The notes: generated by a model not told the origin, from the letters alone. DNA of 33,808 nt from an uncultured Chlorobiaceae bacterium (GCA_903942355.1 CAJAOR010000207.1:1-33808), one strand, 5' to 3'. Shown: positions 5,619 to 33,304, counted from the first letter of the stretch. Numbers and translations are program-made.

Positions 5619-5630
5619 GAAAGAATCAAA

Positions 5631-10127: not shown

Positions 10128-10165
10128 CTTAACGGGCTTTAAAATCCGTTTTCTGAGGCGATCCT
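10128..10165 (-). repeat. solo Tn3-type 38-bp terminal inverted repeat (remnant)
   Basis: cttaacgggctttaaaatccgttttctgaggcgatcct closely matches the IRR of the complete transposon (cttaacgtactttaaaatccgtttcctgaagcggcccc, 17602-17639) at equal length. Confidence 0.75.
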
Positions 10166-10269
10166 TTCCTGCACATGAAAATGACTTTGATAATAAGTAC
10201 AAGATATTATTGCATATTTATGGTGCGAAGAGTGTAAATGCTTTATCTGCATTTATTTATGGTCCGTCT

Positions 10270-11076
10270 TTATTGCTTGTCAAAAGTAGTGTTTACTATA
10301 TAATACCAATCATCATCATCTCCTAAACGATCGGTTATGTTTTCTTTATATTTATTAGCCATTTCGCCTAATACACACTTAACAATTTCATTGAGTTTAT
10401 TCCGATTATTGTAATAATTGCCAATATTTTCATTGTCAAAAATATTGGTTTTAATGACCTTAGTTTGGATTAATTGCCGCCATTGTTCTGAGTGATTATT
10501 TTTCTGTAAAGAAACATAATTATATTTTTCAATTGGCAAGACTATATCAAATATATTGATATCATTATTAGAATATTTAAGAACATTTAGGTTTAGTGCA
10601 ATAATGGATTGCATAACTCTGTTTGGAATATAATAATAATATTCTTTGGTTTCATTATCTATTGTTTCAAATAATTTATTCTTATCCCAATATAAAATAG
10701 AGTTAATCATGGCTTTCAAGCCACATGTCTGTATTTTAATATTGAAACCAACTTGAGCTGTTTTAAAAGCAGATAACCCAACAAGCAATGCTACTATATT
10801 ATTAGCATCATTTAAAGATAACCCTTCCTTAGATACTTTTGCTATTACACATCTAAGCAAATCCGCATCTACTAACCCAGTATAATATTTATGAGATAAT
10901 TTCAGAGCAGAGCCGATAAGAGATGGATTTATAGAACCAAAATCATGAATTAGTTTCGCTGATATTAAGTTACTTGGAGATGTATCAAGACCATTTAAAA
11001 ATTTAGTTAGTAAAGTTTCATTTTCAATTATGACGTATGGATCGTAAAACCCAAAATGATTACAATAGAATTCCAT
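10270..11076 (-). CDS. hypothetical protein (268 aa), strikingly AT-rich
   Basis: Long ORF in AT-rich DNA with Asn/Ile/Tyr/Lys-rich product; no recognised domain. Confidence 0.6.
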   Translation of the reverse strand: MEFYCNHFGFYDPYVIIENETLLTKFLNGLDTSPSNLISAKLIHDFGSINPSLIGSALKLSHKYYTGLVDADLLRCVIAKVSKEGLSLNDANNIVALLVGLSAFKTAQVGFNIKIQTCGLKAMINSILYWDKNKLFETIDNETKEYYYYIPNRVMQSIIALNLNVLKYSNNDINIFDIVLPIEKYNYVSLQKNNHSEQWRQLIQTKVIKTNIFDNENIGNYYNNRNKLNEIVKCVLGEMANKYKENITDRLGDDDDWYYIVNTTFDKQ

Positions 11077-11201
11077 TTTATTATGTCTTTTTTATTCATA
11101 ATGCAAGAATATAATCATTAGATGTGGTCGACTATTTCGCGGATTATAGAATTGCAACCTACCATACCGATTAAATATAGCCTACAATTTATTTCTTCAA
11201 C

Positions 11202-11348
11202 CTATTGCACTGCCAGAATATCAAGATCGATCCTGCTGATACGTTCAGCAATCTGAATCGTATGCTTAAGGGGTTTTCCTTTGACCAGCTTACCGAGTAA
11301 AGTAAAAACCTTGAAATCCGCCTCAGTGAATTCGTAACTGAAAGTCAT
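11202..11348 (-). CDS. short hypothetical ORF (48 aa) or gene remnant
   Basis: Translated by eye: MTFSYEFTEADFKVFTLLGKLVKGKPLKHTIQIAERISRIDLDILAVQ*; below the ORF-track size cut-off. Confidence 0.3.
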   Translation of the reverse strand: MTFSYEFTEADFKVFTLLGKLVKGKPLKHTIQIAERISRIDLDILAVQ

Positions 11349-11644
11349 GGCCAAAGTCGGCTTTCCTACCCCAATGCCTCAATAGCTCCTAAAAAGTTAA
11401 ACCGTGAAAACAGGTTATTGAGATTGAACGTGTCGACCTTTATGAATATGGCAATCTTGCCGATAGAGTTATAGACGTACTACTCTGGCTATAACGTATA
11501 TATTTAGCAGGTAATTACAAAATATTCACAATCATAAATGGAGGATTTCAAAATAATATTTTGAGTTATTACTGTATTATATTATGTAGGTAGGGCTACG
11601 CAGGCATACCCCGCTATCGCTCAGTTTTTTTTAAGCGACCCCTT

Positions 11645-11879
11645 TATACCTGTATTATCCTGAAATACGGAAAGGAAACAGGCATCATTACCAGCATGAA
11701 TTGTTTCTGCTTATACTCGTTGCGGTCAACGGCAGCAACGAATTCTCTGGAACACGGCGCTGATATCGGAAAGGTTCAAAGGAGTGTGGCTCGGTCATGC
11801 CAATGTTTCAACAACACGGCTTTATGACAGGAGGAAAAGCAGGCCGGAGGAAAGTCCGACGTTCAGGGTGAAGCACTGA
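11645..11879 (+). pseudogene. decayed 3' fragment of the tyrosine recombinase at 7037-8005
   Basis: tatacctgtattatcctgaaatacggaaaggaaacaggcat...aggaaaagcaggccggaggaaagtccgacgttcagggtgaag aligns along its length with 7776-8003; small insertions (gttcaaaggagtgtggctcgg vs gtgcaggagtggcttgg) shift the frame. Confidence 0.92.
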
Positions 11880-12038
11880 ACGACCGAGAAAGACGTCTAT
11901 CAGAATTAAATCGCAATAGTTTAAGCGACTGCACAAATCAGTTTACTAAACCGGCCACCCAGATTAACACGAAATTGGATAGTAGTGGCGTAACCGTAGG
12001 CTTCACATTGCAACGGATTAGGTGTAACGGATAATGAG

Positions 12039-12076
12039 ATGCAATTTAAATCTCTTAATTTCTAAAGAGGATTGAA
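12039..12076 (+). repeat. orphan CRISPR-repeat-like sequence
   Basis: atgcaatttaaatctcttaatttctaaagaggattgaaac region: CTCTT...AAGAG hairpin followed by the classic GATTGAAAC 3' tag; single copy only. Confidence 0.3.
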
Positions 12077-12174
12077 ACTCTATTTTCTTACGCTACCCGT
12101 CTTACTCATTGGGAATGCCAGCCTAGAAAGGAAATCGAAAGTTCGTTATTCAGAACAAATATTATATAGAAAAC

Positions 12175-12936
12175 ATGAGCAGTCCAACGCTGAAAACGAT
12201 TAAACGGCTTTTTGCGGAGTCCGGAAACCAGTGCGCTTTTGCCGGGTGTAATGAACTTTTATGTAATGATGCCGGAGTTATTGTTGGTGAAATCTGCCAT
12301 ATAAAAGCAAGCAGAACAGGGGGCCCTCGATATGACTTCAACCAGACAGCAGAAGAGCGAAATGCATATGATAACCTAATTCTCTTATGTCCTACTCATC
12401 ATACATGGATAGATTCTAATCCTGATGAGTTTTCTGCTGAATCGCTTATCGCGATGAAAAGTGTCAAGAAAACGTATGCTGCTCACCCCGAAACAAGCGA
12501 AGATGCTTTGTATGCCAAAAAGCTCTTGGAAAAGTTTCTGCGGCAATCCCCTGCACAAAATATCATGATGAATAGCCCTGGGGCTATTCAAGCACACACG
12601 GTAAATCTTAAAACGACAATGAAAAACGTGATTGTGGCACCAGCCCCCAATACAATAGGGAATGACCAAAGAAAAAGCCGGTATGTCGAGTACTTGATAG
12701 AGCGCTACAACAAATTCGCTAGCACACATTACGCCGGAGCGAAGCCATTTTCATACGGAGCAATAGGGAGCAATATCGTATCGAAGTTTGGGTCAAAGTG
12801 GAGAATGCTGCCAGTTGAGCGATTTGAACAGGTGGCCTCCTATCTACAGGATAGAATATCAAAGACAAAACAGGCTAAATGGGGTCGCTTCAGGAAACGG
12901 ATTTTAAAGTACGTTAAGGAATCGGTAGCGGTCTGA
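12175..12936 (+). CDS. HNH endonuclease, 3' end replaced by Tn3 insertion
   Basis: N-terminus has an HNH core: [12 protein letters not shown]...[17 protein letters not shown]...[16 protein letters not shown]; last 17 residues are encoded by transposon terminus DNA (12881 onward). Confidence 0.8.
12881..12918 (+). repeat. Tn3 IRL
   Basis: ggggtcgcttcaggaaacggattttaaagtacgttaag: GGGG start and TAAG end, typical of Tn3-family IRs. Confidence 0.97.
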
Positions 12937-15880
12937 GCGCTCTGAAATGCCCCTCTTTGCCCTTAAAGCGGTTGCGCCATACATAATCACCAGTCAGGTT
13001 GATGTGTTCCCATCCTAAAGGCGAGAGGTTTTGCAAGAGGAGCTGATCCACTTGTCGTCCTTGTTCTTTCCATGATTTGATGATACGATCCAGATACACC
13101 GTATTCCAGAGTGCAATTGCCGCAGTCACTAAATTCAACCCACTTGCCCGATATTGTTGTTGCTCGAAACTGCGGTCACGGATCTCACCAAGCCGGTTAA
13201 AGAAGACTGCACGAGCCAAAGAGTTGCGAGATTCACCTTTGTTCAGCCCTGCATTCACCCTTCGTCGGAGTTCGACATTTTGTAGCCAGTCCAGAATAAA
13301 CATGGTGCGTTCAATGCGGCCAAACTCTCGTAAAGCTAATGCCAAACCGTTTTGGCGAGGATAACTGCCAAGTTTTCGAAGCATCAGAGAAGCTGTTACC
13401 GTTCCTTGTTTTATCGAGGTCGTCAGTCGTAAAATATCATCCCAATGACTGCGGAGATGATTGATGTTCAGCCTGCCACCGATCAATTTTTCAAGTGCCG
13501 GATAATCAGCCGTTTTTTTCGGCACATAAAGTTTTGTCTCTCCCAAGTCACGGATACGGGGAGCAAATCGGAATCCCAGTAGGTGCATCAATCCAAAGAC
13601 ATGATCAGTGAAGCCTGCGGTATCAGTATAGTGTTCTTCGATCCGTAAATCCGATTCGTGATAGAGCAGTCCATCAAGGACATAGGTGGAATCGCGGATA
13701 CCGACATTAATAACTTTAATGTTGAAGGGTGCGTATTGATCAGAGATATGGGTGTAGAACATCCGTCCAGGTTCAGTACCGTACTTCGGATTAACATGTC
13801 CGGTACTTTCCCCTTGGTTACCAGCCTTGAATCGCTGCCCATCCGATGATGATGAGGTCCCATCACCCCAATTTTGGGCAAACGGATGCCGAAGTTGAGC
13901 GTTGACCAGTTCGGCAAGAGCTGCGGAGTATGTTTCATCTCGGATGTGCCAAGCTTGCAACCAAGAGAGCTTTGCGTATGTCGTGCCCGGACAGGATTCT
14001 GCCATTTTAGTCAGTCCAAGGTTTATCGCATCTGCTATAATTGCTGTCAGGAGTAATGAGGTATCCTTAGCCATGTCGCCAATCTTGAGGTGCGTGAACT
14101 GTCGGGAGAAACCTGTCCAAGCATCTACTTCCATAAGCAGATCAGTTATTTTAATATGTGGCAGGCACATTGCAGTCTGCTCAATGAACAGCTTTGCTGC
14201 TATGGGGACGACGGTGTCCTGCTGCGTGATTTTCAGACCGGATTCATTGATCACGGCATCGGGCAAATCGTTGGCCTGAGCCATGCTGTTTACAGTCCTC
14301 AGTTGTTGTTCCAAAAGACCCAGACGATCATGCAAATATTGATCACAGTCGATGTTGATATCAAGCGGTAATGTTCCAGCCTTTCTGAGAATATTGAATG
14401 TATCGGCAGGTACAAGGTATTCATCGAAGTCTTTGAACTGGCGTGATCCCTCAACCCACATATCGCCGGAACGGAGAGCGTTCTTCATTTCCGACAGAGC
14501 GCATAATTCATAATAGCGCCGGTCAATTCCCTCACCGCTGAAAACCAACTTCTCCCACCGCTTTTTGATAAAGGTAGTGGGTGCATCCGATGGTACCTTT
14601 CGGTTGTTATCAGCGTTCAGGGTGCGAATAACCTCAATGGCATCAAGCATATTTTGTGCGGCCGGTGCTGCTCGCAATTTCAGAACATTAAGAAATGCTG
14701 GAGCATAGCGGCGCAGCATACTGTAACTTTCCCCAAGACGATGCAGGTAATCAAAATCTTCAGGCTGAGCAAGTTTTTCCGCATCAGTCACGCTTGTTGC
14801 GAACGCTTCCCAAGACATGACTGACTCAATTGCAGCAAAGGCATCCCCACCATTTTGCCTCGCAGCAAGCAGGGCTTGACCGATCTTGCCGAAGAGCCGA
14901 ACCTTGTCATTAATCGCCTTACCAGATTCCTGAAAATTTTGCTGATGCCTGTTTTTCGCTGCGTTGAAGAGTTTACCGATGATTCGGTCATGCAAATCAA
15001 TAATTTCATCAGTTACGGTGGCTGTACCTTCCAGAATCAGAGCAACCAGAGTTGCATAGCGCCTGAGTAACTCAAACCTGGTCAAGTCGGCTGGTGTCAT
15101 CTGACCACCTTCTCGAGCGATCTTGAGAAGGCGGTTTTGATGGATCAGACGATCAATCCCGTTCGGCAGATTTATTGCGTGAAAGGTTTTTAGACGCTCA
15201 ATGTGTTCGAGCATGTGCCGTGAATTTGGTTTTGCAGGTGACTGCCGCAACCAGGCCAGCCAAGTAATCTGACTCTCTGGTCTTCGCTGAAGCAAGTCAT
15301 CAAGACGCTGACGGTGCTCGTCCGAGAGTGGATCGGTTAAGGCCACATAAATGCGTTTATTTGCACGAGTGATGGCTTCAGCACAGATGCTGTCGATAAC
15401 ATTCAGCGATGGCATGAGAATGAGCTGACGGCGTAGACTATCAAGTAGTTTTTCAGCCAACACAACACCCTTATCGGTTTGCCATGCTAACTCGTCTAAC
15501 GCCTGTAAAGAAGGACGAAAATGCCTATTAGTAAATGACTTGAAGCCAAAAACTGATTGCAATTCTATTAAATGCTCTCTCCGTGTTTCTGCCCGTCGGC
15601 CATACTTCTCCCACACCTCCATTTTTACATTAAGCTGTTTTGCAACAATACGAAGCAGTGGAGCAGACGGTTTGACATCTGGAGGTATTATCATTCCAGG
15701 ATAACGCATATAGCAGAGTTGCACGGCAAATCCCAAGCGATTTTCAGCACCCCGATGCTGACAAATAATTGACAGTTCCGAATCATTGAATGTATAGTGC
15801 CGGATCAACTCATCTTGAGTATTCGGCATAACCAGCAAACTGTCGCGTTCTGAAGCTGAAATAACTGAACGACGTGGCAT
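12914..15880 (-). CDS. tnpA: Tn3-family transposase TnpA
   Basis: 988 aa; Tn3 transposase features ([16 protein letters not shown]..., [66 protein letters not shown]); stop codon lies inside IRL. Confidence 0.97.
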
Positions 15881-15903
15881 TGATACTCCTCTTAGAAACG
15901 AGG

Positions 15904-16024
15904 GTTTTTGAGAATACTTTTCAGTGAAGGAACAAGCATTGAAAAATAAGGTGTTACGATTCTCAAAAACAGTTCTTGAAATTAATTCTTAATATATTGT
16001 ATTTTAAATGAGTATTGAGAATAC
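15904..16024. promoter_or_regulatory. putative res site / divergent promoter between tnpA and resolvase
   Basis: gtttttgagaatac (15904-15917), inverted gattctcaaaaac (15958-15970) and gtattgagaatac (16012-16024) share a TTGAGAAT core in the tnpA-tnpR intergenic region. Confidence 0.6.
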
Positions 16025-16041
16025 AAAAAGGAAATATAGAT

Positions 16042-16599
16042 ATGCTTATTGGTTATGCCAGGGTTTCAACACAGGATCAAAATCTTAATCTTCAGATTGA
16101 TGCTTTAAGAAAGGCTGGATGTGAAAAGGTCTTCGATGATAAAGTGAGTGGTACACGGGCCGAACGCCCCGGACTTACCAAGGCACTTGAGCTGATGAGG
16201 GCGGGAGACACGCTTGTTGTCTGGAAACTTGATCGACTTGGCCGTAGCGTCAAGCAACTGGTTGATCTGGTCGCCGGACTTCAGAAACAGGGAGTTCAGT
16301 TCAAAAGTCTTACCGATGCCATCGATACCGGCACACCATCAGGCCGCTTTTTCTTTCACGTCATGGCAAGCCTCGCCGAAATGGAGCGGGAACTGACGGT
16401 TGAGCGTACTCGTGCAGGATTGGAAATTGCCCGCCAACTTGGCAGGAAGGGTGGCCGCAAGCGCTTGATGACTGACAGTAAAATTCATTCAGCAAAAAAG
16501 TTGCTGGCTAACGGGGTTCCGCCTCGGGATGTCGCAAAAGATCTTGGCGTATCTGTTCCGACGTTGTACCGATGGATTCCCGCATCCAATAATTCTTAA
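16042..16599 (+). CDS. tnpR: serine resolvase/invertase TnpR
   Basis: MLIGYARVSTQDQNLNLQIDALRKAGC...VWKLDRLGRSVKQLVDLV...; ATG at 16042 preferred over the tracked start at 16015, which lies in the putative res site. Confidence 0.93.
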   Translation: MLIGYARVSTQDQNLNLQIDALRKAGCEKVFDDKVSGTRAERPGLTKALELMRAGDTLVVWKLDRLGRSVKQLVDLVAGLQKQGVQFKSLTDAIDTGTPSGRFFFHVMASLAEMERELTVERTRAGLEIARQLGRKGGRKRLMTDSKIHSAKKLLANGVPPRDVAKDLGVSVPTLYRWIPASNNS

Positions 16600-16690
16600 G
16601 GCGCTTTAACGTGGTATAATGTTAAGCCATGTTAACGTATATATTAATTGATAGTTAATTGGTCAATACTTTTTACTATTTGCTGTTTTA

Positions 16691-17506
16691 TTGTATTCAT
16701 TCTGCAAATCGATGTATATGCAACAAAAACATATTTACGGCTTTCTTGCCGGTGTTATTATCGGAACTCTTGGTGGCTTGATTGGACTTGGTGGGGCCGA
16801 ATTTCGACTTCCCCTTTTGATAGGCCTTTTTGCATTTCCTGCTCTTGATGCTGTGATTCTCAATAAAGCAATGAGCCTGGTTGTTGTTGCTTCAGCTTTA
16901 CCGTTCAGGGCCAGTACGGTTTCATGGCAGGCTATTGCGGATAATTGGCTTGTCATTATCAACCTTCTTGCCGGTAGCCTTATCGGTGCATGGCTTGGAG
17001 CGGGCTGGGCAACCATACTCCGTTCGGAAGGGCTCTACAAGATCATTGCCTTTCTCCTGCTCGCTATTGCCTGTGTCTTAGCAGGAAGCCATCTGGTGCA
17101 TGGCTCTGGCAAGCCTTTGCTGGACAATGCTATTGCTTTGGCAATATGCGGAGTACTGGCAGGCTTTGTAATTGGTGTTGTTGCTGCACTGCTTGGTGTA
17201 GCAGGTGGAGAACTGTTGATTCCAACGCTGGTGATTTTATTTGGGATCAATATCAAGTTAGCTGGCAGCCTCTCCCTTGCTATCAGCTTGCCGACCATGC
17301 TGGTTAGTTTTACTCGCTATAGCCGTGACAGCAGTTTTTCAGTTCTTGGGGCTAACCGGCCTTTTCTCTTTATCATGGCAGCAGGATCGCTCTGCGGCAC
17401 CTGGATTGGCGGGAGGTTGCTTGGTATTGTTTCAGAGTCTGTGCTTATCCCAATGCTGGTCTTGCTTCTTGTTTTATCTGCAATCAAGGTCTGGAAACAC
17501 AAGTAA
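16691..17506 (+). CDS. TauE/SafE family sulfite-exporter-like permease (transposon passenger)
   Basis: 271 aa; two GGLIGLGGAEFRLPLLIGLF / ALLGVAGGELLIPTLVILFG repeats typical of TauE/SafE; lies inside the Tn3 element. Confidence 0.85.
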   Translation: MYSFCKSMYMQQKHIYGFLAGVIIGTLGGLIGLGGAEFRLPLLIGLFAFPALDAVILNKAMSLVVVASALPFRASTVSWQAIADNWLVIINLLAGSLIGAWLGAGWATILRSEGLYKIIAFLLLAIACVLAGSHLVHGSGKPLLDNAIALAICGVLAGFVIGVVAALLGVAGGELLIPTLVILFGINIKLAGSLSLAISLPTMLVSFTRYSRDSSFSVLGANRPFLFIMAAGSLCGTWIGGRLLGIVSESVLIPMLVLLLVLSAIKVWKHK

Positions 17507-17601
17507 TTGAAAAGATGAAATTGAGGCTGGTGTTCTCAACAGTGATTGACTTGTATCTTGTTTGGTAGGGATGGAATTGCTGTTGATTAACTCGAACAAT
17601 G

Positions 17602-17639
17602 CTTAACGTACTTTAAAATCCGTTTCCTGAAGCGGCCCC
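17602..17639 (-). repeat. Tn3 IRR
   Basis: cttaacgtactttaaaatccgtttcctgaagcggcccc, reverse complement of IRL with one mismatch. Confidence 0.97.
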
Positions 17640-17712
17640 TAAATGCAATCAAAGCAAACAGTATCCTTCATTCTCCACCTATGACGAGTACTGCATAAAG
17701 CATGGATTTTGA
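17640..17712 (+). pseudogene. detached original 3' end of the HNH gene
   Basis: Joining 12175..12880 to 17645..17712 in silico gives an in-frame 257-codon ORF ending KQAKCNQSKQYPSFSTYDEYCIKHGF*. Confidence 0.75.
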
Positions 17713-18043
17713 TGAATTTTTAGCTGCATTGCCAATGTATCAACGTCCACACTGCTCTATGATTGCAAGAAAAAAGCCAGAAGAGAAGCTCTACGTTCAG
17801 TGTGACAAGATCAGCCTCCCCAAGAGGGAAGGCATCAGGCTTGAGAAGTGCCTTTTTTGGTTAATCACAATCCCGCATCATCATGCCGCTTTCAGGCCAA
17901 ATGAGTGTAAGAACAGGCATACCTTTTCAATGAAGTCCAAGCAGTTATCCGCCATCTTGATCGGTGGTATTCGAAAGCCGATTTTAATGGCGTCAATATG
18001 TCTATTTGTAAGACAATATCTAATCAACTCCCCCGAAGCATAG
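17702..18043 (+). CDS. hypothetical protein (113 aa), likely original operon partner of the HNH gene
   Basis: ATG overlaps the restored HNH stop codon by 11 bp; no recognised domain; 3' half overlaps an antisense ORF and may not be real. Confidence 0.35.
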   Translation: MDFDEFLAALPMYQRPHCSMIARKKPEEKLYVQCDKISLPKREGIRLEKCLFWLITIPHHHAAFRPNECKNRHTFSMKSKQLSAILIGGIRKPILMASICLFVRQYLINSPEA

Positions 18044-18181
18044 CGACCGGGTATGAGTTCATTTTTCAACCATTCATTCATGAAGCGGAGCTTCGGGGAA
18101 TTCAACCCAGAGATTAAATGGGACTCAGAACTGCACGGTATTGCTGCTTTAGTGTCTGGGGAATTATTACCTGATATGACA

Positions 18182-20185
18182 CTATATTCCCAGCTTCTGA
18201 AAAAAAACTTTGTTGCGCATCTTTGCATCCTTCAGAACTTTGTCCCAGCTAATGACTTCAAGATACAAATTGATATTATCCCTCCATTGAAACCACCCCG
18301 AACGGTCAGGCATTGGTTTGAAGTCTTTTTCACGTTCAAGCCATGCTTCGACTTTTGAAGTCAAATCACAAACCACATATCCATAGAACGGGGTGTTATC
18401 CATAACTTGAATCTTGCGTCCTTCGGGCGTTTTATACTTGCCGTCTCTGATGTTGTTGACGTAACGCACAATCTGTTGAACAGGATCTTCCTGCGAAGAT
18501 GGGTTTACAAAATCATCTCGTTGTGGCTTCTTGAACTCAAAGATTGTGATAGGATTACTCGCTTCATTGTCCTCACGAAAAAGAACTCGCTTATTGTAGG
18601 CAATAAGGTCTGGGCGATCTGTTTTCTTTCCATCCAGAGGGATATCGGATGAGACATACGAGCAGAAATTCATTCGTTCATCAATTATCCAAAGATGATG
18701 ATCGTTAAAGGAGGTGATTTCTGTGTCGCCCTTTCGCGGGAAGATAATATCGTGTACTCTGCCCTCTGCTGAATAAGTGCCGGTATCATCAATCTCAAGA
18801 CTTTTGCCAAAAATATCCAGTATTTTACGCCGAAGTGCAATGTAGTGGATCAAGTCGTTTCTGCTCGTATCAGAGATTTTACTAACAATCGCAAGGATAC
18901 TATCCTGTAATTTCTCGAATTTGCTTTCCGCCAGCAATTTTTTAACATCATTTTTGATTTCGATTTCTTGCGCAAACTTTTCTTTCTGAAGCCGAATTTC
19001 AATTTCCTCATTTGATGGGTTATATGGCATCCCACTCAGATCAATCTTACTGAGGATATTCTTGTGCCATGGAGCTTCTTCGTCAACATAGCACTGCACG
19101 CGCTCTTTTTTCTTTTCCTGTCTAAAGGTGATATCAGGGCCAATAGCTTCTTTGGCTGCAGTTGCGGCTTCGCGCTCTATCTCAGTTTGGGATATTCCAA
19201 GAATAAGATCCATTTCAATTTGGAACTCGAATCCTCCTCGCTCCAATGATACATTCCGGTCGAGGTAAGCACTAAATACATAAGCTTTTATAATATAGTT
19301 GCGCTCGCGATCAATCTCGCCAGTTCCATCCTTATCATAAAATTCATCTTCAAACTCTGGGATGTATTTGTGAATCGGATTTCCCGAGACTTCCCGTTTG
19401 TGAGCAACAAGGCTGATCCGACTCTTTTGATTCTTCGGAGCATAGAGTTTGAAAATCCGGACGTGAAACTCTTCCTCAGTATCCGTGGCATGTAGTTTAA
19501 ATATTTTTTTATCAACTACTATTTCCTGTATTACGGCAGCAAGCTCATTGTTGATAAAATCATTTAGTCGGATCATGCCGCTCCCATCCTTTTCCGAAAG
19601 GACAATCTCTGGGCAAATGTAATCCTCTGTAATGAAGTATGGGAGCAGCCGCTCGAACAGATTTCGTGCTATCGTCGAGAGTTTCTTGTCGAAGAAACGG
19701 CCTTTTTTCAAGATAGATAAGGTCACTACGGTACCAGATTCCTGCTGTACACTTGCCTCAACCTTTTCGTTAACGATAATGTCGTTGTCCTTACCCATAG
19801 AGAAACAACGGAGCTTGAGTATGCTACCATCGCAGTAGACACTCCTGACATGAAGATCCTCAAAGTATTTGAGGCAGGTAAAACGGCCAAAGCCTTTACC
19901 GCCTTCATCGATCTTAAGGTCGGTATAGAGGGTGTCAAACGAGTTACAATTCTCATCCGTAAAGCCTATTCCGTTATCCTGTATTTCAAAGCTGCAAACA
20001 TCAGGAAGACTATTATCGAGTTTGATCTGATGGCTTCTTATTGCACGGATAGAGACTTTTCCTTGCATCCTGCTGGCAGCGTCAATTGCCTGAATGGCGT
20101 TAACGGTCATCTCAACAACAGGCGTGTACACTGTGGTATTAGCCCGGATGTTCTCTACCGCTCTTTTGATGTTGACGTTGCTCAT
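18182..20185 (-). CDS. GHKL (HSP90/MutL-like) ATPase with C-terminal PD-(D/E)XK-like nuclease domain
   Basis: 667 aa; N box VVEMTVNAIQAID, G1 FEIQDNGIGF, G2 DEGGKGFGRFTCLKYF; C-terminal DRPDLIAYNKRVLF...ITIFEFKKP fits a PD-(D/E)XK core. Confidence 0.8.
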   Translation of the reverse strand: MSNVNIKRAVENIRANTTVYTPVVEMTVNAIQAIDAASRMQGKVSIRAIRSHQIKLDNSLPDVCSFEIQDNGIGFTDENCNSFDTLYTDLKIDEGGKGFGRFTCLKYFEDLHVRSVYCDGSILKLRCFSMGKDNDIIVNEKVEASVQQESGTVVTLSILKKGRFFDKKLSTIARNLFERLLPYFITEDYICPEIVLSEKDGSGMIRLNDFINNELAAVIQEIVVDKKIFKLHATDTEEEFHVRIFKLYAPKNQKSRISLVAHKREVSGNPIHKYIPEFEDEFYDKDGTGEIDRERNYIIKAYVFSAYLDRNVSLERGGFEFQIEMDLILGISQTEIEREAATAAKEAIGPDITFRQEKKKERVQCYVDEEAPWHKNILSKIDLSGMPYNPSNEEIEIRLQKEKFAQEIEIKNDVKKLLAESKFEKLQDSILAIVSKISDTSRNDLIHYIALRRKILDIFGKSLEIDDTGTYSAEGRVHDIIFPRKGDTEITSFNDHHLWIIDERMNFCSYVSSDIPLDGKKTDRPDLIAYNKRVLFREDNEASNPITIFEFKKPQRDDFVNPSSQEDPVQQIVRYVNNIRDGKYKTPEGRKIQVMDNTPFYGYVVCDLTSKVEAWLEREKDFKPMPDRSGWFQWRDNINLYLEVISWDKVLKDAKMRNKVFFQKLGI

Positions 20186-20283
20186 CGCTAGAATAATCTA
20201 TCGTTATTAAATAATATGACGCTGCTTCGAATCCTCGTAACTATATTATATAATTAATATTTATGAAGTGTTTTAAATAACGA

Positions 20284-23200
20284 TTATTCTGGTATTGGTA
20301 CCGCACGAACAATCGCCAGATCGTTTTCTGAAAGCGAGAAAAGTGCGGAAACACGGGCCTCGATCTGTTCTTTCAGATTAGCTGCGTTACGCATGAAGAC
20401 TGTACGCTGATGAGGTGTTCGAGCTGAGTTCGCAGCATTATTGGCAGCAAAGATCTTTTCCACCAAATTTCCTATAGAAATTTGTTCGTCATCAGATGCT
20501 ACCGGGATTGGAAGATGTTCAATATACTGTTTCCCATGTGAGTAATAACCGCCACGAAATGGACTCGTATTTATACGAACAAAGGCTTCGCTTAATGGAT
20601 GATTTAATACTGCAAGCAGATAGAAATTGCTGAAATTGGCTCCGGGTTTCGACCTGATCATGTAATAGGGGCCATTACCCCCGCCTGTCACCATGATATT
20701 GGCGTCATCATATGCATAGCGCGCTTCGCGAGAGAGAATCGGCAAGATAATCTTTGGCGTAGAAAATTTTGTTAAGCTTTGCGACCGGCCAAACTGATAA
20801 AATTGCCTCTCGGAGACAATCCCGCCTTGAATATTACGGCGTGCTAGTTCCTCCTGACGAGCGCAAAGATATGCCCAGCAACCCGGATAGTTCCGAGCCA
20901 TCGTCTCTGGTTGAATCAACCGGTATGAGTTATGAATGCCATCGCTAATCAATTCATAGGGGAAAATCATCCAGGCATTTGCCTGCGGCCGGGCATAGTT
21001 TAACATTTGGACATCGAGCAAACAGGGACGAAGAAGCGCACGCTCAATTGGCCAATTTCTATTGTTCCAAGAAAGTGAAACTGTGGACAAGTTTTCTTCA
21101 ATACCTGTAAAAATATATATCTTATCCGCACTGGTTTGTACACCAACGAATATTTCAGCAACTTGGCCGAGTTCATCAGGGCACGTTACACGAACACGCC
21201 CGAATAGTTCATTGGTATCTGCATCGGCAAACTGCCAAGTATCTTCCCCAAATCTATTTGCCAATACATTTAAAACTTGACCTGGTGTACCATAACGCCA
21301 AGTTTCAAGTTTTTTCACCCGCTCGACTCGAACGGAGTCTTGACCATGGCGATCTAATACGAGAATACAAGTATAATTTGTAACCTGTAGACCAAAAACT
21401 TGCTGAATACCAAAATGCACGATTTCCTCCAAAAACTTATCCGCCACAATAAGTCTCCGGAGGGCACGCCCAGCTTGGATCGTCATGAATTTATGCGGAA
21501 TTATTACCCCCAGCCTGCCGCCAGTTCTGAGTAATGTCAGTGCTCGTTCAATAAAGAGAGCATATTTATCAAAATTATCTTGCCGTGCAGTCAAATATGG
21601 GGATTGTTGGCTCTTGTAGAATTTCACCTCCTCTGGTGAATACTCCATCATATTTTGAATCCGTATATAAGGTGGATTACCAACAATCACATGAAAACCA
21701 CCCTCCTCCATTTCAATAGGAAACGCATTCCTCCATGTAAATGGATTAATCTTTTCCTGTAACTGAGGAGGCAAAGTACCACATGAGAATGTCCATTCAG
21801 ACTGACAGACTAAGCTATTTCCTGCAAAGATAACATTATCAAGTGATGGTAGCACGGGAATACCGTCTGTGGCCACAAAGTCTTGTAACCCAGTCGCAGT
21901 CTCATTTTCAATAAGTTTAAGCAAAAGGCTAAAACGCGCAACGTCGGTAGCATTGGGATCAATATCAACACCACGAATATGTTTTTGCAGAATCCGCCGC
22001 TTTTCTGCAAAAGTAAGATTCCATTTGCCAGCGGTTCCCTCGTAGATTGTCCGACCAATATGGTTTTCGGAATTATCAGAAAGATACCATGTTAAGTAAT
22101 GATTCAGGATAGCTTCATAAACCGACAGAAGAAACACGCCGGAACCACAACATATATCCGCAACGGTGAACCCGTTCAAATCAACTGGACTTTTGCCGGA
22201 TAAAGATGGCTCCAAAGTGCGCTCAACAATAGCATCGACTATGTAACGAGGAGTTGGCACTACCCCTCCACTATCGCGCAGCTCTGGCTTGTAGATAATT
22301 TCAACTGCACCATCAACAACAGAAATTACCTCACCAAGAAACTGCTCATAAATTTTACCAAGCACTTCAGTCTCAACTACTGAAAATGTATAGGGGCTTT
22401 TGGGGTAATATAGTTCGATGATGATTTCTTGCAGAACGTTGTCACTGATTCGGACTCCTAATGGATCATCATCAATCAAATGAAAAAGTCCGGAATCATA
22501 AAACTCATCTGCCCGACGGAGTTGAGCAATAAGTGCATTGAAGGTATTACTAGCGGGTAAGTTCTTCAGTGTTTCATAACGCTCAATGTCTCGATCTTCG
22601 CAGATGCGCAAAAAAACAATCCGCAACAGAAAAAGTTGAACCACGTAGGTAAGTTCTGTTGGTCCAAGACCCGGAGTATTTGCAAAAATATCCGCAGCTA
22701 ATCGCTCCCGCCATGATCTCACTTGACCAAGAAAGAAACCATCAAATTGTTCAGTCCCTTGCCGTGAAGGGTTATTAGCAAATCGAGCATCAAAGTCACC
22801 GGAATAGACTGCTTGACGTGATAGCATAGCCCAAAGTTCCTCAAAACGCTCAGGGAACTCCTTATATGGGACTAAAAGTATCCGAGCTACATGCACTTCA
22901 TCAGAGCCGGTAGGCTTAGGTAAACAGTCGTATATGGCCAATTGATAAAAATTGGTCAGAACCACTATCGGTAAATTTGCTGAGTACCCATAGCGTCTTG
23001 CCTGAAATGCGGCTTCACGGTTTTTGCCAATACGAACATGAGGCTTTTTTGCCTCAACGAAGAACTTCCGCTGTCGCGCTAAGCGTAATTCGTAATCCGG
23101 CTTTTTTGAAATAGGCTCTTCGTCAACATCGACAGTAGCTTCTTCGATAACTTCGCGTAAAGCGAGAGCATAATTATTTCTATTGTAAACATCCCAGCCG

Positions 23201-23349
23201 AATGCTTCAAGTAGCGGTGTAATAAAGTCTGTACGGGCTTGAGTTTCGTTGTAGACTGATCGCAAATAATCTGCTTCATGATTCTGAAATTTCCGGACCA
23301 GCTCTGTAACGTGTTCTAGTGCGGTGGCTTTGATGCGCTCTTCTGTCAT
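20284..23349 (-). CDS. type IIG-like restriction-modification enzyme (Eco57I-type N6-adenine methylase with N-terminal nuclease motif)
   Basis: 1021 aa; N-term KKPDYELRLARQRKFFVEAKKP (PD-ExK), SAM motif FTVADICCGSGVFLLSV, catalytic GNPPYIRIQ; C-terminal target-recognition-like region. Confidence 0.9.
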   Translation of the reverse strand: MTEERIKATALEHVTELVRKFQNHEADYLRSVYNETQARTDFITPLLEAFGWDVYNRNNYALALREVIEEATVDVDEEPISKKPDYELRLARQRKFFVEAKKPHVRIGKNREAAFQARRYGYSANLPIVVLTNFYQLAIYDCLPKPTGSDEVHVARILLVPYKEFPERFEELWAMLSRQAVYSGDFDARFANNPSRQGTEQFDGFFLGQVRSWRERLAADIFANTPGLGPTELTYVVQLFLLRIVFLRICEDRDIERYETLKNLPASNTFNALIAQLRRADEFYDSGLFHLIDDDPLGVRISDNVLQEIIIELYYPKSPYTFSVVETEVLGKIYEQFLGEVISVVDGAVEIIYKPELRDSGGVVPTPRYIVDAIVERTLEPSLSGKSPVDLNGFTVADICCGSGVFLLSVYEAILNHYLTWYLSDNSENHIGRTIYEGTAGKWNLTFAEKRRILQKHIRGVDIDPNATDVARFSLLLKLIENETATGLQDFVATDGIPVLPSLDNVIFAGNSLVCQSEWTFSCGTLPPQLQEKINPFTWRNAFPIEMEEGGFHVIVGNPPYIRIQNMMEYSPEEVKFYKSQQSPYLTARQDNFDKYALFIERALTLLRTGGRLGVIIPHKFMTIQAGRALRRLIVADKFLEEIVHFGIQQVFGLQVTNYTCILVLDRHGQDSVRVERVKKLETWRYGTPGQVLNVLANRFGEDTWQFADADTNELFGRVRVTCPDELGQVAEIFVGVQTSADKIYIFTGIEENLSTVSLSWNNRNWPIERALLRPCLLDVQMLNYARPQANAWMIFPYELISDGIHNSYRLIQPETMARNYPGCWAYLCARQEELARRNIQGGIVSERQFYQFGRSQSLTKFSTPKIILPILSREARYAYDDANIMVTGGGNGPYYMIRSKPGANFSNFYLLAVLNHPLSEAFVRINTSPFRGGYYSHGKQYIEHLPIPVASDDEQISIGNLVEKIFAANNAANSARTPHQRTVFMRNAANLKEQIEARVSALFSLSENDLAIVRAVPIPE

Positions 23350-25061
23350 ACATTAGAACTTATAGGGGTTTTCCTACCTCTTCGCTTCCTGGCCATACGA
23401 CGATCTCGCATCTTTATCCAGATATCACGCAATGAATTACATTCGACCTCGGACAGCCCCATGTGCCCTCTCAACACAATCCGCGCGTTCTCTTCAAGTA
23501 CATCATCAAGTCGCCCAGAACGAATGAGATGATCGGACTCTTCTAAGGCCATAGCACCATTTAGATTTGCTGGCATCAATAAGCGCTCAGCTTCTTTCGG
23601 TTCGAGTTCTAGAACACCACCGCCATAGCTACGACCTTCGATTTCAGCAGAAGCTGCCGTCATCCAAGTATAGGTATTAGCAATGACCTGTTCTGGCTTA
23701 CCTATCTTACAGGTCATACGGTGAATTGTATCGGTGGATGTCGCGTTGGCTTGATTTAAAACCATACGAGGAAAATCATAAATCTGCCGGAATACAAAAC
23801 CATCAGGCGCCCAGACAGATGGGACTGAATACCATGGTTCGCGTATAGAACATTTATACCCATTATTTACGAGATTATATTCACCAAAGCGAATATAACT
23901 CAACAATGCATCATTGAGCTTGCCGTTCTGAGTGGGAGTAATATGGAGAAGATGTACACGATCATCAGCAGCAGAAAGGTTTTTCCAATCAATGCAACCG
24001 ATCTGCACCCCTTTTAAATGGGTAGAACGAGATACCAATGGAATCGTATAGCCCTCAAGTCCTAGCTGAACAACTTGAGAGCTTGTGAGAACAAAATATT
24101 CGTTTTTTCCGGTTACAACTCCAACATTCACGCTAGCATATTTCGATAAATTTGCGGTTGAAGATGAGTCGCGCAGCTCTCGCATAAATGCGATTTCGGA
24201 TCCAGAGAGAAAGTATTTCAACCATTTTTCGTTATCGTGGCGGATAATCTTCGGCTGTGCATCGGCCAACACTAATTCAGGTATGAAATTTGTAATCTGA
24301 GCAACTGTCCCCACTTCTGTCATTGTCACCCTACAGGTATTCGCCTCTGTTGCTTGAGGAAGTGCTCCGTCAGCTAGTAATAGAACCACTTCTTGTTCAG
24401 CATTTTTAAAGAATAGTTCATTGCATGCGACGATATCGATTCGCTTAAAGCGGTCAGTCAAGAATGAACGCAGTTGTGCCGCATAGCTAACTTGCAAAAG
24501 CTCTGCAGGAAGCACCAGCGCTAGACGGCCCCCGGTTCGCAAACTAGCGACGGCTGCAACCACAAACGGAACCCAAATATTGGTTAGCCGATTGGGGCTA
24601 AGGCCCAATTTAACCATGATTTCCATTGCTAGACTACGATGTGGCTCAGGAAAACTCTGGTAACGAATGAATGGTGGATTTCCAATAACGACATCATAAG
24701 CTGGTTGTGGATTTTGTATCCACCAGCTAAAGAAATCACTTGTCGTCACTACTTCGGAATTATATATCCCAAGTTTCTCGTGCAGTCTTGTGCGGGCACG
24801 ATCCGCTTCTTCTGCATTGATCTCAATACCTTTTAGGCTGTGTGAGATTGCCTGAAAACTTGACCCAAGGTTAATAAACCTATCCATTGCCGCTTCCAGA
24901 AAAACACCATCCCCGCAACTAGGCTCTAAAACTCTATTATCTTGTGACCGGATGGCCCACTGGCAAAGCCAGGATGCAAGATCAATGGGAGTATAGTAAC
25001 CTCCACGTAGTTTATCTAGGCTACCAGCTGTAAACCGATTATTTTGAAGTTGATTTCCCAT
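23346..25061 (-). CDS. N6-adenine DNA methyltransferase (Eco57I-like, no obvious nuclease domain)
   Basis: 571 aa; RVLEPSCGDGVFLEAAMD, DVVIGNPPFIRYQ; ATGA overlap with the downstream type IIG gene. Confidence 0.9.
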   Translation of the reverse strand: MGNQLQNNRFTAGSLDKLRGGYYTPIDLASWLCQWAIRSQDNRVLEPSCGDGVFLEAAMDRFINLGSSFQAISHSLKGIEINAEEADRARTRLHEKLGIYNSEVVTTSDFFSWWIQNPQPAYDVVIGNPPFIRYQSFPEPHRSLAMEIMVKLGLSPNRLTNIWVPFVVAAVASLRTGGRLALVLPAELLQVSYAAQLRSFLTDRFKRIDIVACNELFFKNAEQEVVLLLADGALPQATEANTCRVTMTEVGTVAQITNFIPELVLADAQPKIIRHDNEKWLKYFLSGSEIAFMRELRDSSSTANLSKYASVNVGVVTGKNEYFVLTSSQVVQLGLEGYTIPLVSRSTHLKGVQIGCIDWKNLSAADDRVHLLHITPTQNGKLNDALLSYIRFGEYNLVNNGYKCSIREPWYSVPSVWAPDGFVFRQIYDFPRMVLNQANATSTDTIHRMTCKIGKPEQVIANTYTWMTAASAEIEGRSYGGGVLELEPKEAERLLMPANLNGAMALEESDHLIRSGRLDDVLEENARIVLRGHMGLSEVECNSLRDIWIKMRDRRMARKRRGRKTPISSNV

Positions 25062-25264
25062 TATGTCATAGCTCCTACCGTAAGAATCATAAGCAAATCG
25101 TGAAAATGAGCGAGAAAGTACATAAGATTAAGCTCAATGAGCCTAACTAAATCAAAAGCAGAACAACTATTGTCTTTATGCAAGAGCTCATAAATCTGCT
25201 GAATACCTTGGTTAAGCTGAAATATACGAGAATATCTCGGCGATCTATAACTGCTATTTTTCAC
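25061..25264 (-). CDS. small ORF (67 aa, GTG start) coupled to the methyltransferase, or truncated gene 3' end
   Basis: Stop codon overlaps the MTase start (TAATG); same strand; in-frame stop a few codons upstream of the GTG. Confidence 0.45.
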   Translation of the reverse strand: MKNSSYRSPRYSRIFQLNQGIQQIYELLHKDNSCSAFDLVRLIELNLMYFLAHFHDLLMILTVGAMT

Positions 25265-28136: not shown

Positions 28137-29018
28137 CTATGCAACGACCAGATATCTATCTGACAAATATTGCTTCCATCTCAATATTTCTTCATTGCCT
28201 TCAATTGCCTGGATGTATCGCTCGTAAGTACATCCGAAGACCTTTTGAGGTTCATTCAGATACGATTGGTATTCCGGGATGACCTTATCGAAATGCTTGT
28301 TCCCTGATGGATAGAGTATAATTGAATAAAAATCGTCAAGTTTATTTTCATTATCAGGACTTAATTGGCACATAGATAAGCCCAGAAGATGGTTTCTCCA
28401 TATCTGCCTCAAATCGTCGCCATGAAGCCTAGGATTATCGGTATCAAGAAATGCCGACGATTGCCGGGTAACCTGCCAGTATCTTGACTGTTTATCTTCG
28501 ACTTTCTTTTTCTCGGTTTTGCCGATTGGATACCCTCTCTCTGTGTACTTTAACTCAATCCCGATGCCTGTTTTCTTTCCCTGACGGTCCGTAAAACTAA
28601 TGAATGTGTCAAATGAAGTGGCATCATCCAGGTAATCACCTTTCGGCTTGGGAGCAAACTCAATCTTGATCTTGTACGGAGCATCGCTCTCCAGGCCAAA
28701 TGCGGTTTTGATAATGTGCTTTGCCAGCGAAGGATCGGTACGAAGCGGAGCAAGCATGTTAAAAGGAATGTGTTCGCTCCGCAGCATATCCCCATCACGA
28801 GATATTGAGTTTTCGGAATACCGCTTCCGAAGCGCCCTTTTAACATTGAGCCCATCGTAATAGTTGTGCAGAGCCTTTGCGTCTGGCTCGGTCAATTTGC
28901 TCCCATATTCGTTGCATTCCATTTGAAGAACGTTGGCTCGATATTGAGATTGATGGAGTCTGGCTGCTGCTTTGAAACTATCGTCAAGAGGGTATGGCTT
29001 ACCGATATCAATCATCAT
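28137..29018 (-). CDS. PD-(D/E)XK nuclease-like protein (PGN_0703-type)
   Basis: 293 aa; SFDTFISFTDRQGKKTGIGIELKYTE active-site pattern and RYWQVTRQSSAFLD...LWRNHLLG-like (IWRNHLLGLSM). Confidence 0.7.
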   Translation of the reverse strand: MMIDIGKPYPLDDSFKAAARLHQSQYRANVLQMECNEYGSKLTEPDAKALHNYYDGLNVKRALRKRYSENSISRDGDMLRSEHIPFNMLAPLRTDPSLAKHIIKTAFGLESDAPYKIKIEFAPKPKGDYLDDATSFDTFISFTDRQGKKTGIGIELKYTERGYPIGKTEKKKVEDKQSRYWQVTRQSSAFLDTDNPRLHGDDLRQIWRNHLLGLSMCQLSPDNENKLDDFYSIILYPSGNKHFDKVIPEYQSYLNEPQKVFGCTYERYIQAIEGNEEILRWKQYLSDRYLVVA

Positions 29019-29259
29019 GATCCTTTAAAGTTTTTTGATTGTTACGAAACCCTTGGAGCATATGTTACGTACTTAAATTAATGATGATTGATTTGTTACG
29101 GACAGGAATACCACCCCTTTAGATACTTGAGGCCTGCCATGCAGCTTGCCTCAGTTGCATCTGATTAGAATTTACCTCCCTGTCAGAAACCAGATAATTT
29201 CTTTCATTCATCGTTTTGTCTAATAAAAAAAAGAAGCTGACCCTTATCGTTGCAGCAAG

Positions 29260-29481
29260 TCACCTCTGCAGCCTCTCAGCCATTTCCTGAAGCTTCGCAA
29301 TATCTCGATTGATGATGTCGATGGCGCAAGTAGCACAGTAGTGTTCGTTTGACCTACCATCAGAAACCTTCAAGCGCTTGTCGCCACTCATAACACGATG
29401 TGCTGCATTGTGTTGACAATTATGTGCTTTTTTAGCCTCGTCTACCTCCACTCTCTGTAGAATTGATTTCGGTCTAGGCAC
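29260..29481 (-). CDS. small Cys/His-rich (zinc-binding-like) protein
   Basis: GTG start overlapping the helicase stop; HNCQHNAAHRVMSG...HYCATCAIDIINRDIAKLQEMAERL; the tracked 29565 start lies inside the helicase. Confidence 0.55.
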   Translation of the reverse strand: MPRPKSILQRVEVDEAKKAHNCQHNAAHRVMSGDKRLKVSDGRSNEHYCATCAIDIINRDIAKLQEMAERLQR

Positions 29482-31270
29482 TGAATACCTCCCTTTGTGC
29501 AGCTTCTGACAATTCCGAAAATCTCTCGTTGATGGTATCAAGCTGAGTACGAGTAAATTCGGCACGCCGCCCTACACCAAGTCCTACCGCCGCTGCGATG
29601 TGCCTATCAATCGCAGCCTTCAACACTACAAAGTTCGTTCTCCGGTGACTATGAGTATCAAGGTCAAAGCCAGAAGAGTTTATACCACGAGCATTTAGTA
29701 TCAGTCCGACCTCAGTACGAACACGCATGTCCAAGCTAGACCGTGCTGCTTGTCGTTGCCTTACCCTAGTGGTAGGTATCGGTTGCAACTCCATCACTTG
29801 ACGAACTGCATCTGCAGAATAACCTCGTTCCTGAAGCATACGAATAGCCTGCATAGCTTCGGAATCTCCTTGAATAAGCGGTATTTCCTCTACTGTTACG
29901 CCTGATTGTCCTCGGACGTTCACAGTGTTTATGGCTCTGGCGACAGGCGTTGCTGTAATTTCGTTAGAGTGCGAGAAATCCAGTCCCTCCAAGGGCAGAA
30001 GCTGATCGAAAAACTCTTGGTCAGCCTCGCTATATTCCTGAAAATCCTGCCACCTTTGAGCAACGTTCGCTCCAGCATGAAAAACAACAGTCCCTTGATT
30101 CAAAGAATGCTGACTGTCATTCTGTACGATCACACGCATGATACGTCCAACAAACTGAACAAACGGTGACAGGTTAGAAAAGATGCTGAATACTGCTGCA
30201 ACTGACAAGTATGGATGGTCAAAGCCTTCTCCCAACTTTCGAACTTGCACAATAACGTCCAGTTGATGGTTCTCCAACTGCGAAAGCACTCGGTCATTCG
30301 CGGCTGACGCTTCACGACTGTGAACGTAGTCAGCGCGACGCCCTCGGGCTCGGTAGGCTTCCACGATCTGCCGACAGTGTTCAAAGTTGAGGGCTGACGC
30401 AATAATCTTAACCCTATTATCAGCGGTCTCAGTGCGAATTCGATCAAGTTCGCGTATAGAAGCATCCACGATAGTGTTCAGTGTCTCCAATGAGGTAACA
30501 ATACTCCGGCGGAAGTCGGCGTCCTCCTCCCCAAGACGACGCACCTCTTCCAGCGGAACTACGATCTCCTGATCATCCTCTCGTCGAACATAACTCAATG
30601 TCCGAGGGTTTAGCACGAGAGCCTTTAGGCGTTTGATATAGCCCTCCTGAATAGCCCGAAATACTGGGTATGAGTAGATGATACTGCCAGCCATCCTTTG
30701 ACCATCAGCACGAAGAGGTGTTGCACTCAGGTTGATGATGCGTGCCCTTGGAAATCTTTGCTTCAGGGAATCCCATGTTGCAGCCACACTGTGATGTCCC
30801 TCATCGAAAAGTATGAGATCAAAAAAGTCATCTGGAAGAGAGCTTAGCCATCGATTTTCCTCACCTTGAAGCTGCTGAATGTTAGTGACAACAACATCCG
30901 CTTCATCAAGGTCGCCAAGGTTAGTCGTGGTACCACGAATCTCGACAGGCTCCGGGTATGGCGGAACTGTAAGGACACTAGTTCTTAAGTAGAACATTTG
31001 TGGTTGTGTCGGATCAAAATCTTTGTACAGTTGATCCGCAATTCGAAGCCCAGGCGCAATAACAAGAGTCCTGTTTGCTTGGAAAGCGAAGGGAGCAAGC
31101 GCAATACATCCCGATTTACCACAACCCACAGGCAGAACAATGCCTGCCTCGCGTTCGCATTCTGGGTTCAAAGCAAATTCCTGTAGTGCTGCAAAAGCCT
31201 CTCGTTGAGGAATACGCAATTGCATATTCCCTATGATGGCCGGTTGACGCGTCTCAAAAAAATTACTCAC
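29474..31270 (-). CDS. superfamily 2 DEAD/DEAH-box helicase (restriction-type)
   Basis: 598 aa; Walker A VLPVGCGKSG, DEGH box LILFDEGHHS, SATPLRADG, motif VI QFVGRIMRV. Confidence 0.9.
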   Translation of the reverse strand: MSNFFETRQPAIIGNMQLRIPQREAFAALQEFALNPECEREAGIVLPVGCGKSGCIALAPFAFQANRTLVIAPGLRIADQLYKDFDPTQPQMFYLRTSVLTVPPYPEPVEIRGTTTNLGDLDEADVVVTNIQQLQGEENRWLSSLPDDFFDLILFDEGHHSVAATWDSLKQRFPRARIINLSATPLRADGQRMAGSIIYSYPVFRAIQEGYIKRLKALVLNPRTLSYVRREDDQEIVVPLEEVRRLGEEDADFRRSIVTSLETLNTIVDASIRELDRIRTETADNRVKIIASALNFEHCRQIVEAYRARGRRADYVHSREASAANDRVLSQLENHQLDVIVQVRKLGEGFDHPYLSVAAVFSIFSNLSPFVQFVGRIMRVIVQNDSQHSLNQGTVVFHAGANVAQRWQDFQEYSEADQEFFDQLLPLEGLDFSHSNEITATPVARAINTVNVRGQSGVTVEEIPLIQGDSEAMQAIRMLQERGYSADAVRQVMELQPIPTTRVRQRQAARSSLDMRVRTEVGLILNARGINSSGFDLDTHSHRRTNFVVLKAAIDRHIAAAVGLGVGRRAEFTRTQLDTINERFSELSEAAQREVFSA

Positions 31271-32220: not shown

Positions 32221-32273
32221 AATGTTCAATTATTTGCTATGTTCAAATTAAATGAACAAAAAATATATTGAAC
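32221..32273. promoter_or_regulatory. candidate autoregulatory operator of the AbiE-like operon
   Basis: gttcaa at 32224 and 32241, inverted ttgaac at 32268-32273, flanking the start codon at 32252. Confidence 0.3.
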
Positions 32274-33304
32274 ATAAATTAGCCGGAGACAATGAAGAAA
32301 TCTTTCGGCGGGCTATGGAAGCCCTGAAGACAATCGCTCCACTGGAATACGCGATTGAACCGTGTCACGTCCTTCATGACCAAGGATACGAATTCTTGAT
32401 GAGGGGAAAAGTTTTCGGGAACGCATTCGTCTGGTGCATCGTGGTAAAAAAATATCTTACCAAAACCGACGAACTCCAGGTTCTCGTAAACAGGGATAAG
32501 ATGCCACATCCATTTGTGCTGGCGACAAGATACATTCCCCCTGAGACCGCGGCAAGATTGCGCGATACCGGCATCCAGTTCATCGACACGGTCGGAAACG
32601 CCTTTCTCAATCAACCTCCACTGTTGATTTTCGTTCAAGGAAATAAACCGGAAAAGGAAGAAATCGTTCTTCCCACAGCTCGTATCTTCAGAGGAGTTGG
32701 CCTGAAGATCGTCTACCTCTTTTTGTGCCAACCGGAACTGGTCGAGAAAACGTATCGCGATCTGGCCTGGATGGCGAATGTCGCCTTGGGAACGGTGAAA
32801 AGCACCATGACCGAACTGATCCAGAGAGGCTTCATATTCGACATGGGCAAAAAGGGAAAAAAGCTCCTGGATAAAAAGAAGCTCTTTGAGCGCTGGATTG
32901 CTGCGTATCCCGACTACTTAAAACCTAAACTGTTGATGGGGCGATTCCGGGGTGATGGGGAGTGGTGGAAGGACATCCAACTGGATCCCGCTGTCGCGCA
33001 ATGGGGCGGCGAGGTTGCCGCAGCGAAACTGACCGGATACCTGAAACCTAGCACTGTAACACTGTATGCGGACAAGCATCGTCTCGGAGAGCTCGTGGTC
33101 GCCAATAGACTGATAAAAGACCCGCACGGCAATATAGAGATTCTCGAACGGTTCTGGCCGCTGAACAATGACTTCGGTGACGGCGATACGGTGCACCCGA
33201 TCATCATCTATGCTGACCTTGTCGCCATCGGCGACCAACGCACAACGGAAACCGCAAGAATAATTTATGAACAACATATCGATCAATATTTCAGGCAGGA
33301 TTGA
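32252..33304 (+). CDS. AbiEi-like antitoxin / winged-helix transcriptional regulator of a type IV-like TA system
   Basis: 350 aa; RDLAWMANVALGTVKSTMTELIQRGFI winged-helix segment, SVTLYADK-like region (PSTVTLYADKHRLGELV); overlaps a nucleotidyltransferase ORF. Confidence 0.75.
   Translation: MNKKYIEHKLAGDNEEIFRRAMEALKTIAPLEYAIEPCHVLHDQGYEFLMRGKVFGNAFVWCIVVKKYLTKTDELQVLVNRDKMPHPFVLATRYIPPETAARLRDTGIQFIDTVGNAFLNQPPLLIFVQGNKPEKEEIVLPTARIFRGVGLKIVYLFLCQPELVEKTYRDLAWMANVALGTVKSTMTELIQRGFIFDMGKKGKKLLDKKKLFERWIAAYPDYLKPKLLMGRFRGDGEWWKDIQLDPAVAQWGGEVAAAKLTGYLKPSTVTLYADKHRLGELVVANRLIKDPHGNIEILERFWPLNNDFGDGDTVHPIIIYADLVAIGDQRTTETARIIYEQHIDQYFRQD

Follow-up and report, generated by a model that had tools for sequence, protein, structure and literature searches.

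GHKL ATPases of the paraMORC3 type combine a GHKL domain and an S5 domain with a C-terminal restriction-endonuclease fold, which is RecB-like and carries an E-D-ExK signature (Iyer, Abhiman and Aravind 2008; PMC2292703). The sections of that paper that describe the family place some of its members in restriction-modification (R-M) neighbourhoods, and describe them as often standalone and widely transferred. In 2025, anti-phage protection was shown for VcSduA, a Shedu type I-D protein from Vibrio cholerae VSP-II WASA that is described as having a paraMORC3-like architecture (PMC12137116). Protection was lost with either E27A or K557A, and it was robust at every multiplicity tested, which is consistent with direct restriction (PMC12137116). 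Some other Shedu proteins sense DNA ends (reviewed in PMC12409362).

Here we analysed a stretch of 33,808 nucleotides from an uncultured Chlorobiaceae bacterium, hereafter the window, in which a gene for a 667-aa GHKL protein lies beside an Eco57I-type R-M operon. Like VcSduA, this protein is the product of a single gene, with an N-terminal GHKL ATPase, a clamp-like middle and a putative C-terminal nuclease. The N-box glutamate is residue 27 in VcSduA and 25 here, the lysine of ExK is 557 and 552, respectively, and in the Vibrio fluvialis and Salinivibrio relatives of the 667-aa protein the two residues stand at 27 and 556. It differs from VcSduA in that the Vibrio relatives of like architecture are only ~29-30% identical to it, its C-terminal domain falls below detection by Pfam SduA_C, and its neighbours are other genes. 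Compared by description, it resembles paraMORC3 in having a GHKL domain, an S5-like domain and E503/D526/E550xK552 in its C-terminal domain, whereas an Eco57I neighbourhood is absent from the family description in those sections of PMC2292703. By analogy, the protein therefore appears to fit the paraMORC3 architecture and may work like VcSduA, and architecture and residue numbering suggest a putative tie to Shedu. An earlier, sequence-only reading of this DNA had called the locus under-described. This was too strong for the architecture, which was described as paraMORC3 (PMC2292703) and tested as VcSduA in 2025 (PMC12137116), but holds for detection, as the family is missing from PADLOC 2023 and NCBIfam.

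Gene layout and defence-island setting

ORF calling placed four minus-strand ORFs of 67, 571, 1021 and 667 aa at 18182-25264 (Table 1). The 67-aa ORF and the 571-aa gene meet at a TAATG junction (overlap 1 nt), the 571-aa and 1021-aa genes meet at an ATGA junction (overlap 4 nt), and a 98-bp gap (20186-20283) separates the 1021-aa R-M gene from the 667-aa GHKL gene. The sequence-only reading had described this arrangement as a small ORF, an N6-adenine MTase and a type IIG nuclease-methylase followed by the GHKL gene; we confirmed the coordinates and found the catalytic residues intact. The motifs at the locus are not due to chance, because of the Pfam and PADLOC scores and the conservation in 37 relatives that are given below.

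Table 1 Features of the locus, in window coordinates
Feature	Position	Strand	Basis
667-aa GHKL ATPase and predicted nuclease, paraMORC3/VcSduA-type	18182..20185	-	ORF, HATPase_c, fold matches, invariant motifs, SduA_C profile match 70%
AT-rich region upstream of the GHKL gene, part of the exchanged cassette	20186..20265	-	sister-species homology ends at 20265
1021-aa Eco57I-type IIG restriction-methylase	20284..23349	-	ORF, Pfam, PADLOC
571-aa M.Eco57I-type N6-adenine methylase (GNPPF)	23346..25061	-	Pfam M_Eco57I_C 2.8e-32; PADLOC MTase_II
67-aa ORF, GTG start, of doubtful reality	25061..25264	-	ORF call
Exchangeable slot, HNH_2 gene end to R-M operon	17764..20265	.	GHKL gene here vs gajA/gajB in G033

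Within the window, which is a defence island, lie an integrase, Septu PtuA/PtuB, a Tn3-family insertion, UmuDC/SRAP, a REase-ARP and helicase pair, and AbiEi. Its genome is a bin of 2.19 Mb that is 77% complete. The incompleteness of the bin, together with the transposon insertion and fragments nearby, could point to a decayed locus, i.e., a functionless relic cassette, but none of the three large ORFs is truncated and their motifs are intact, and decay is most improbable.

The Tn3-family element spans 12881-17639 and is bounded by 38-bp inverted repeats that are 97% identical. Besides a Tn3 transposase (12914-15880), it carries an ORF judged to be TauE-like by eye. It breaks the 3' end of the HNH_2 gene, which is intact in two sister species (G033 and G005). 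An inverted extra copy of the element end, 39 bp long (87%), lies at 10126-10164 and is perhaps a relic or a solo terminal repeat; copies are also scattered in sister genomes. Septu PtuA/PtuB occupies 8139-10078 (PADLOC 4.6e-182 and 6e-75), and around it the 3' end of the integrase gene is directly duplicated (85%) at 7775-7998 and 11645-11872, the whole region being 7775-11872. Since the integrase adjoins the HNH_2 gene in G005, with no Septu between them, the Septu cassette was probably acquired by integrase-end duplication. On the other side of the R-M operon, a PDDEXK_13/REase-ARP nuclease and a ResIII-type helicase are encoded by two genes at 28137-31270, without a full PADLOC match, and 32252-33806 holds an AbiEi antitoxin gene and then an ORF that overlaps it and runs off the window, probably the AbiEii partner.

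The R-M operon and the exchangeable slot

In Pfam, the 1021-aa protein matches Eco57I (1.8e-38), HSDR_N (1e-6) and TaqI_C (9e-7), its domains being an HSDR_N-type nuclease (PDY...EAK), an Eco57I N6-adenine MTase (GNPPY) and a TaqI_C specificity domain. PADLOC identified it as REase_MTase_IIG (7.6e-281; PDLC03604 spans residues 12-1013) and the 571-aa protein as MTase_II (8.4e-172). The two genes are a complete Eco57I-type R-M pair: a bifunctional IIG enzyme and a separate M.Eco57I stand in tandem with an ATGA overlap, and the M_Eco57I_C and Eco57I/TaqI_C domains are present. Eco57I-type relatives on plasmids differ in having a small regulator, and none is recognisable at the window operon. In these relatives a ribbon-helix-helix (RHH) regulator occupies the place of the 67-aa ORF. 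The latter has no family match in Pfam, its alignment scores with the RHH regulators did not exceed those of shuffles, and its status as a gene is not supported. In agreement with the sequence-only reading, BREX and DISARM were not matched: for these and for MADS, PADLOC and NCBIfam gave only partial MTase-domain cross-matches far under the cut-off, and no full-length PglX, DrmMI or MAD2 and no partner genes were recognised among the window proteins scanned.

In a sister species of the same genus, G033, the R-M operon is present with 98.6% DNA identity to window positions 20265-25206, and the match ends 19 bp past the last R-M gene. There the slot holds GajA/GajB (Gabija) and no GHKL gene, and G033 and the window are collinear again at the HNH_2 gene end, on the other side of the slot. 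Gabija fills exactly the same slot, although its proteins are unrelated to the GHKL protein (GajA is OLD-TOPRIM and GajB a UvrD helicase). A third species shares the HNH_2-side flank, past which insertion sequences follow. In a set of 65 species from the genus, one had a GHKL relative and two had the methylase. As the sister homology stops at 20265, we assign 20186-20265 to the GHKL cassette. An own promoter in the 98-bp gap was considered and rejected: the promoter-like match at 20267-20240, in the GHKL upstream region, is weak, and the number of matches equals that in shuffles.

The GHKL gene and the R-M operon are thus neighbours and not one new system, and the slot between the HNH_2 gene and the operon is exchangeable. 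The sequence-only reading had joined them as one module in which the GHKL protein acts with the methylation-based R-M enzymes. In such a system methylation would mark self and the IIG enzyme would cut unmethylated phage DNA; the GHKL protein would then load on the product, or on stalled R-M complexes, and carry out degradation. The shared strand and the 98-bp gap would suit this arrangement, but the G033 operon does without the GHKL gene, and the upstream region of the GHKL gene has moved with it. What stands of the proposed module is a fusion of a GHKL ATPase with a putative PD-(D/E)XK-type domain, located next to a dual-methylase type IIG R-M operon within a defence island; the unity of the module is contradicted by the Gabija swap.

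ATPase and putative nuclease halves of the GHKL protein

HATPase_c (4.7e-7) was the sole Pfam match of the 667-aa protein, and neither PADLOC and NCBIfam nor a search of solved structures by sequence gave a useful match. The protein is laid out as a GHKL and S5-like part (~1-340), a helical linker (~340-460) and a PD-(D/E)XK-like part (~465-667). Its ATP motifs are the N-box E25/N29, D70xGxG and G95xxGxG, and in our alignment E25, N29, D70, G72, G74, G95, G98 and G100 are invariant (37/37 full-length relatives). An AlphaFold2 model built from 21 sequences was fair in its N-terminal half and poor towards the C-terminus (mean pLDDT 70.5, pTM 0.60). Foldseek matched the model to Topo VI-B, Hsp90, GyrB, MLH1/PMS2 (MutL) and MORC4, and the S5-like domain that follows GHKL (residues ~200-320 of the full model) to Topo VI-B, MLH1, PMS2 and MORC4. 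Structure prediction thus bore out the expected Hsp90-type N domain but not the expected nuclease fold of the C domain, whose separate model was poor (pLDDT 60) and matched no fold. For this reason we infer the nuclease fold from sequence.

The C-terminal signature is D526...E550xK552...Q571xxxY575. Among the full-length relatives D526 and K552 are kept in 37/37, E550 and Y575 in 36/37 each, and Q571 in 34/37, and the ATPase and nuclease residues persist down to roughly 25-31% identity in the 37-relative alignment. Judged by its residues, D...ExK...QxxxY is a RecB-like PD-(D/E)XK nuclease pattern. Upstream of the nuclease core, H478 (37/37) and D-E-R at 502-504, including E503 (34-36/37), are also conserved, and may be part of the active site or of clamp-nuclease coupling.

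SduA_C (DUF4263, PF14082) was not matched above the Pfam cut-off by the 667-aa protein or 9 relatives, and the PADLOC SduA models were silent too. An initial comparison of the nuclease profile with SduA_C was weak (18.5%). With a deeper alignment hhalign reached 70% (P = 4e-5) over 111 columns, which run from the D past ExK as far as the C-terminal strand, and the controls reached 1.3% (the adjacent R-M enzyme's HsdR-type nuclease) and 0.1% (an unrelated profile).

The protein could instead be a MORC- or topoisomerase-like remodeller of DNA superstructure, acting on plasmids or the chromosome, with a C-terminal domain that only binds DNA. Its N-terminal fold is indeed closest to Topo VI-B, GyrB, MutL and MORC4, and GHKL relatives are frequent on plasmids. 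However, DNA binding alone does not demand D526/E550/K552, which are essentially invariant in the 37 relatives, and the related VcSduA needs its lysine (PMC12137116), which makes a pure remodeller very unlikely.

Relatives elsewhere and proposed mode of action

Away from this locus the operon and the GHKL gene each occur independently. Relatives of the R-M operon were found on 12 plasmids (66-70%), with no record in common with the 55 GHKL plasmid matches, and the 4 annotated plasmid R-M regions have an RHH-M-R operon, then unrelated genes and no GHKL gene. Going by record titles, close GHKL relatives (66-79% identity) belong to at least five phyla, with the labels Nitrospirae, Spirochaetes, Proteobacteria, Actinobacteria and Cyanobacteria, and also come from Desulfovibrio; no Eco57I pair was found near them in the flanks fetched, nor at the plasmid relatives. 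Roughly one in three close relatives immediately follows R-M genes, and others follow PDC-S06, a candidate defence ATPase, often with an ATGA overlap; other GHKL relatives stand alone on plasmids, or as single genes in prophages.

In two loci (L002, L007) the GHKL relative is the last gene after type I hsdM/hsdS, with an ATGA overlap, in Salinivibrio (L047) it lies 9 bp behind hsdS, and in a further case (L083) a type I locus encloses it. In Vibrio fluvialis (L046) hsdS and the GHKL gene are separated by a true SduA, and in Celeribacter (L014) a 1361-aa IIG/DrmMI-like enzyme is upstream, with an ATGA overlap. PDC-S06 adjoins the GHKL relative in five nearly syntenic loci and in Paraburkholderia, and the two are possibly a two-gene system in some lineages. 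Directly upstream placement with an ATGA overlap was seen in L003, L004, L006, L011 and L013 (7386-12004), L017 has a 135-bp gap between the two genes, and L076 has, judged by eye, a PDC-S06-like N-terminal fragment upstream. An obligate pair was rejected, as only the Paraburkholderia terrae record was recognised among both the GHKL and the PDC-S06 plasmid matches, 25 of the latter being listed out of 268 plasmid records with PDC-S06 relatives. L004 and L006 (Thiomonas and Eoetvoesiella) are near-identical over ~18 kb around the GHKL gene (3560-22001, by matching ORFs), which indicates recent transfer on a mobile element.

Unrelated neighbourhoods, named beforehand as evidence against R-M coupling, were found in most loci, and a minority are R-M-linked, with type I or IIG-like genes. 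This linkage is suggestive only, because the counts are small. As relatives do stand behind R-M genes or PDC-S06, often with an ATGA overlap, the GHKL protein of some loci may cooperate with its neighbour. The relatives behind hsdM/hsdS (L002, L007), hsdS (L047) and the IIG-like enzyme (L014) would favour a single system of GHKL and Eco57I enzymes, but the GHKL gene is absent from the plasmid R-M relatives, and its own relatives frequently stand by themselves. With R-M operons free of GHKL and the GHKL relatives examined free of an Eco57I pair, the claim of joint action did not hold up, and one system at this locus is unlikely. It is also rather unlikely that the GHKL-nuclease serves as a promiscuous effector, added time and again at the 3' end of DNA-modifying or ATPase defence operons (type I hsdMS, type IIG and PDC-S06) and triggered by their products, e.g., restriction DNA ends.

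We consider it probable that the 667-aa protein acts on its own as a single-gene anti-phage nuclease of the paraMORC3/VcSduA kind, with a GHKL N-terminus on a Shedu-like PD-(D/E)XK domain, beside a separate R-M operon, the two joined by cassette exchange. If it behaves like GHKL proteins and VcSduA, its GHKL domains would dimerise on binding ATP, with E25 as the catalytic base, and the S5/linker clamp would close on DNA or a phage product. Clamp closure may then license the D526/E550/K552 site for direct cutting of phage DNA. Anti-phage activity and the need for both active sites are known from VcSduA (PMC12137116), and the same would be expected of the 667-aa protein. DNA ends are a candidate trigger, as for some other Shedu proteins, in which case restriction products would be input. 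The R-M operon would act separately, with M protecting and the IIG enzyme modifying or cleaving, and defence-cassette exchange in the integrase- and Tn3-containing island would have brought the two together.

The swapped slot shows that genes lying close together on one strand of a defence island do not have to belong to one system, and it provides a natural experiment, in which one R-M operon has either Gabija or a putative GHKL-nuclease in its slot. The tested architecture of VcSduA is extended to a family undetected by the 2023 PADLOC models and NCBIfam. If the add-on reading were true, one effector would serve several upstream systems, and if the repeated R-M coupling is functional, it raises the question of how ATP-gated nucleases are triggered.
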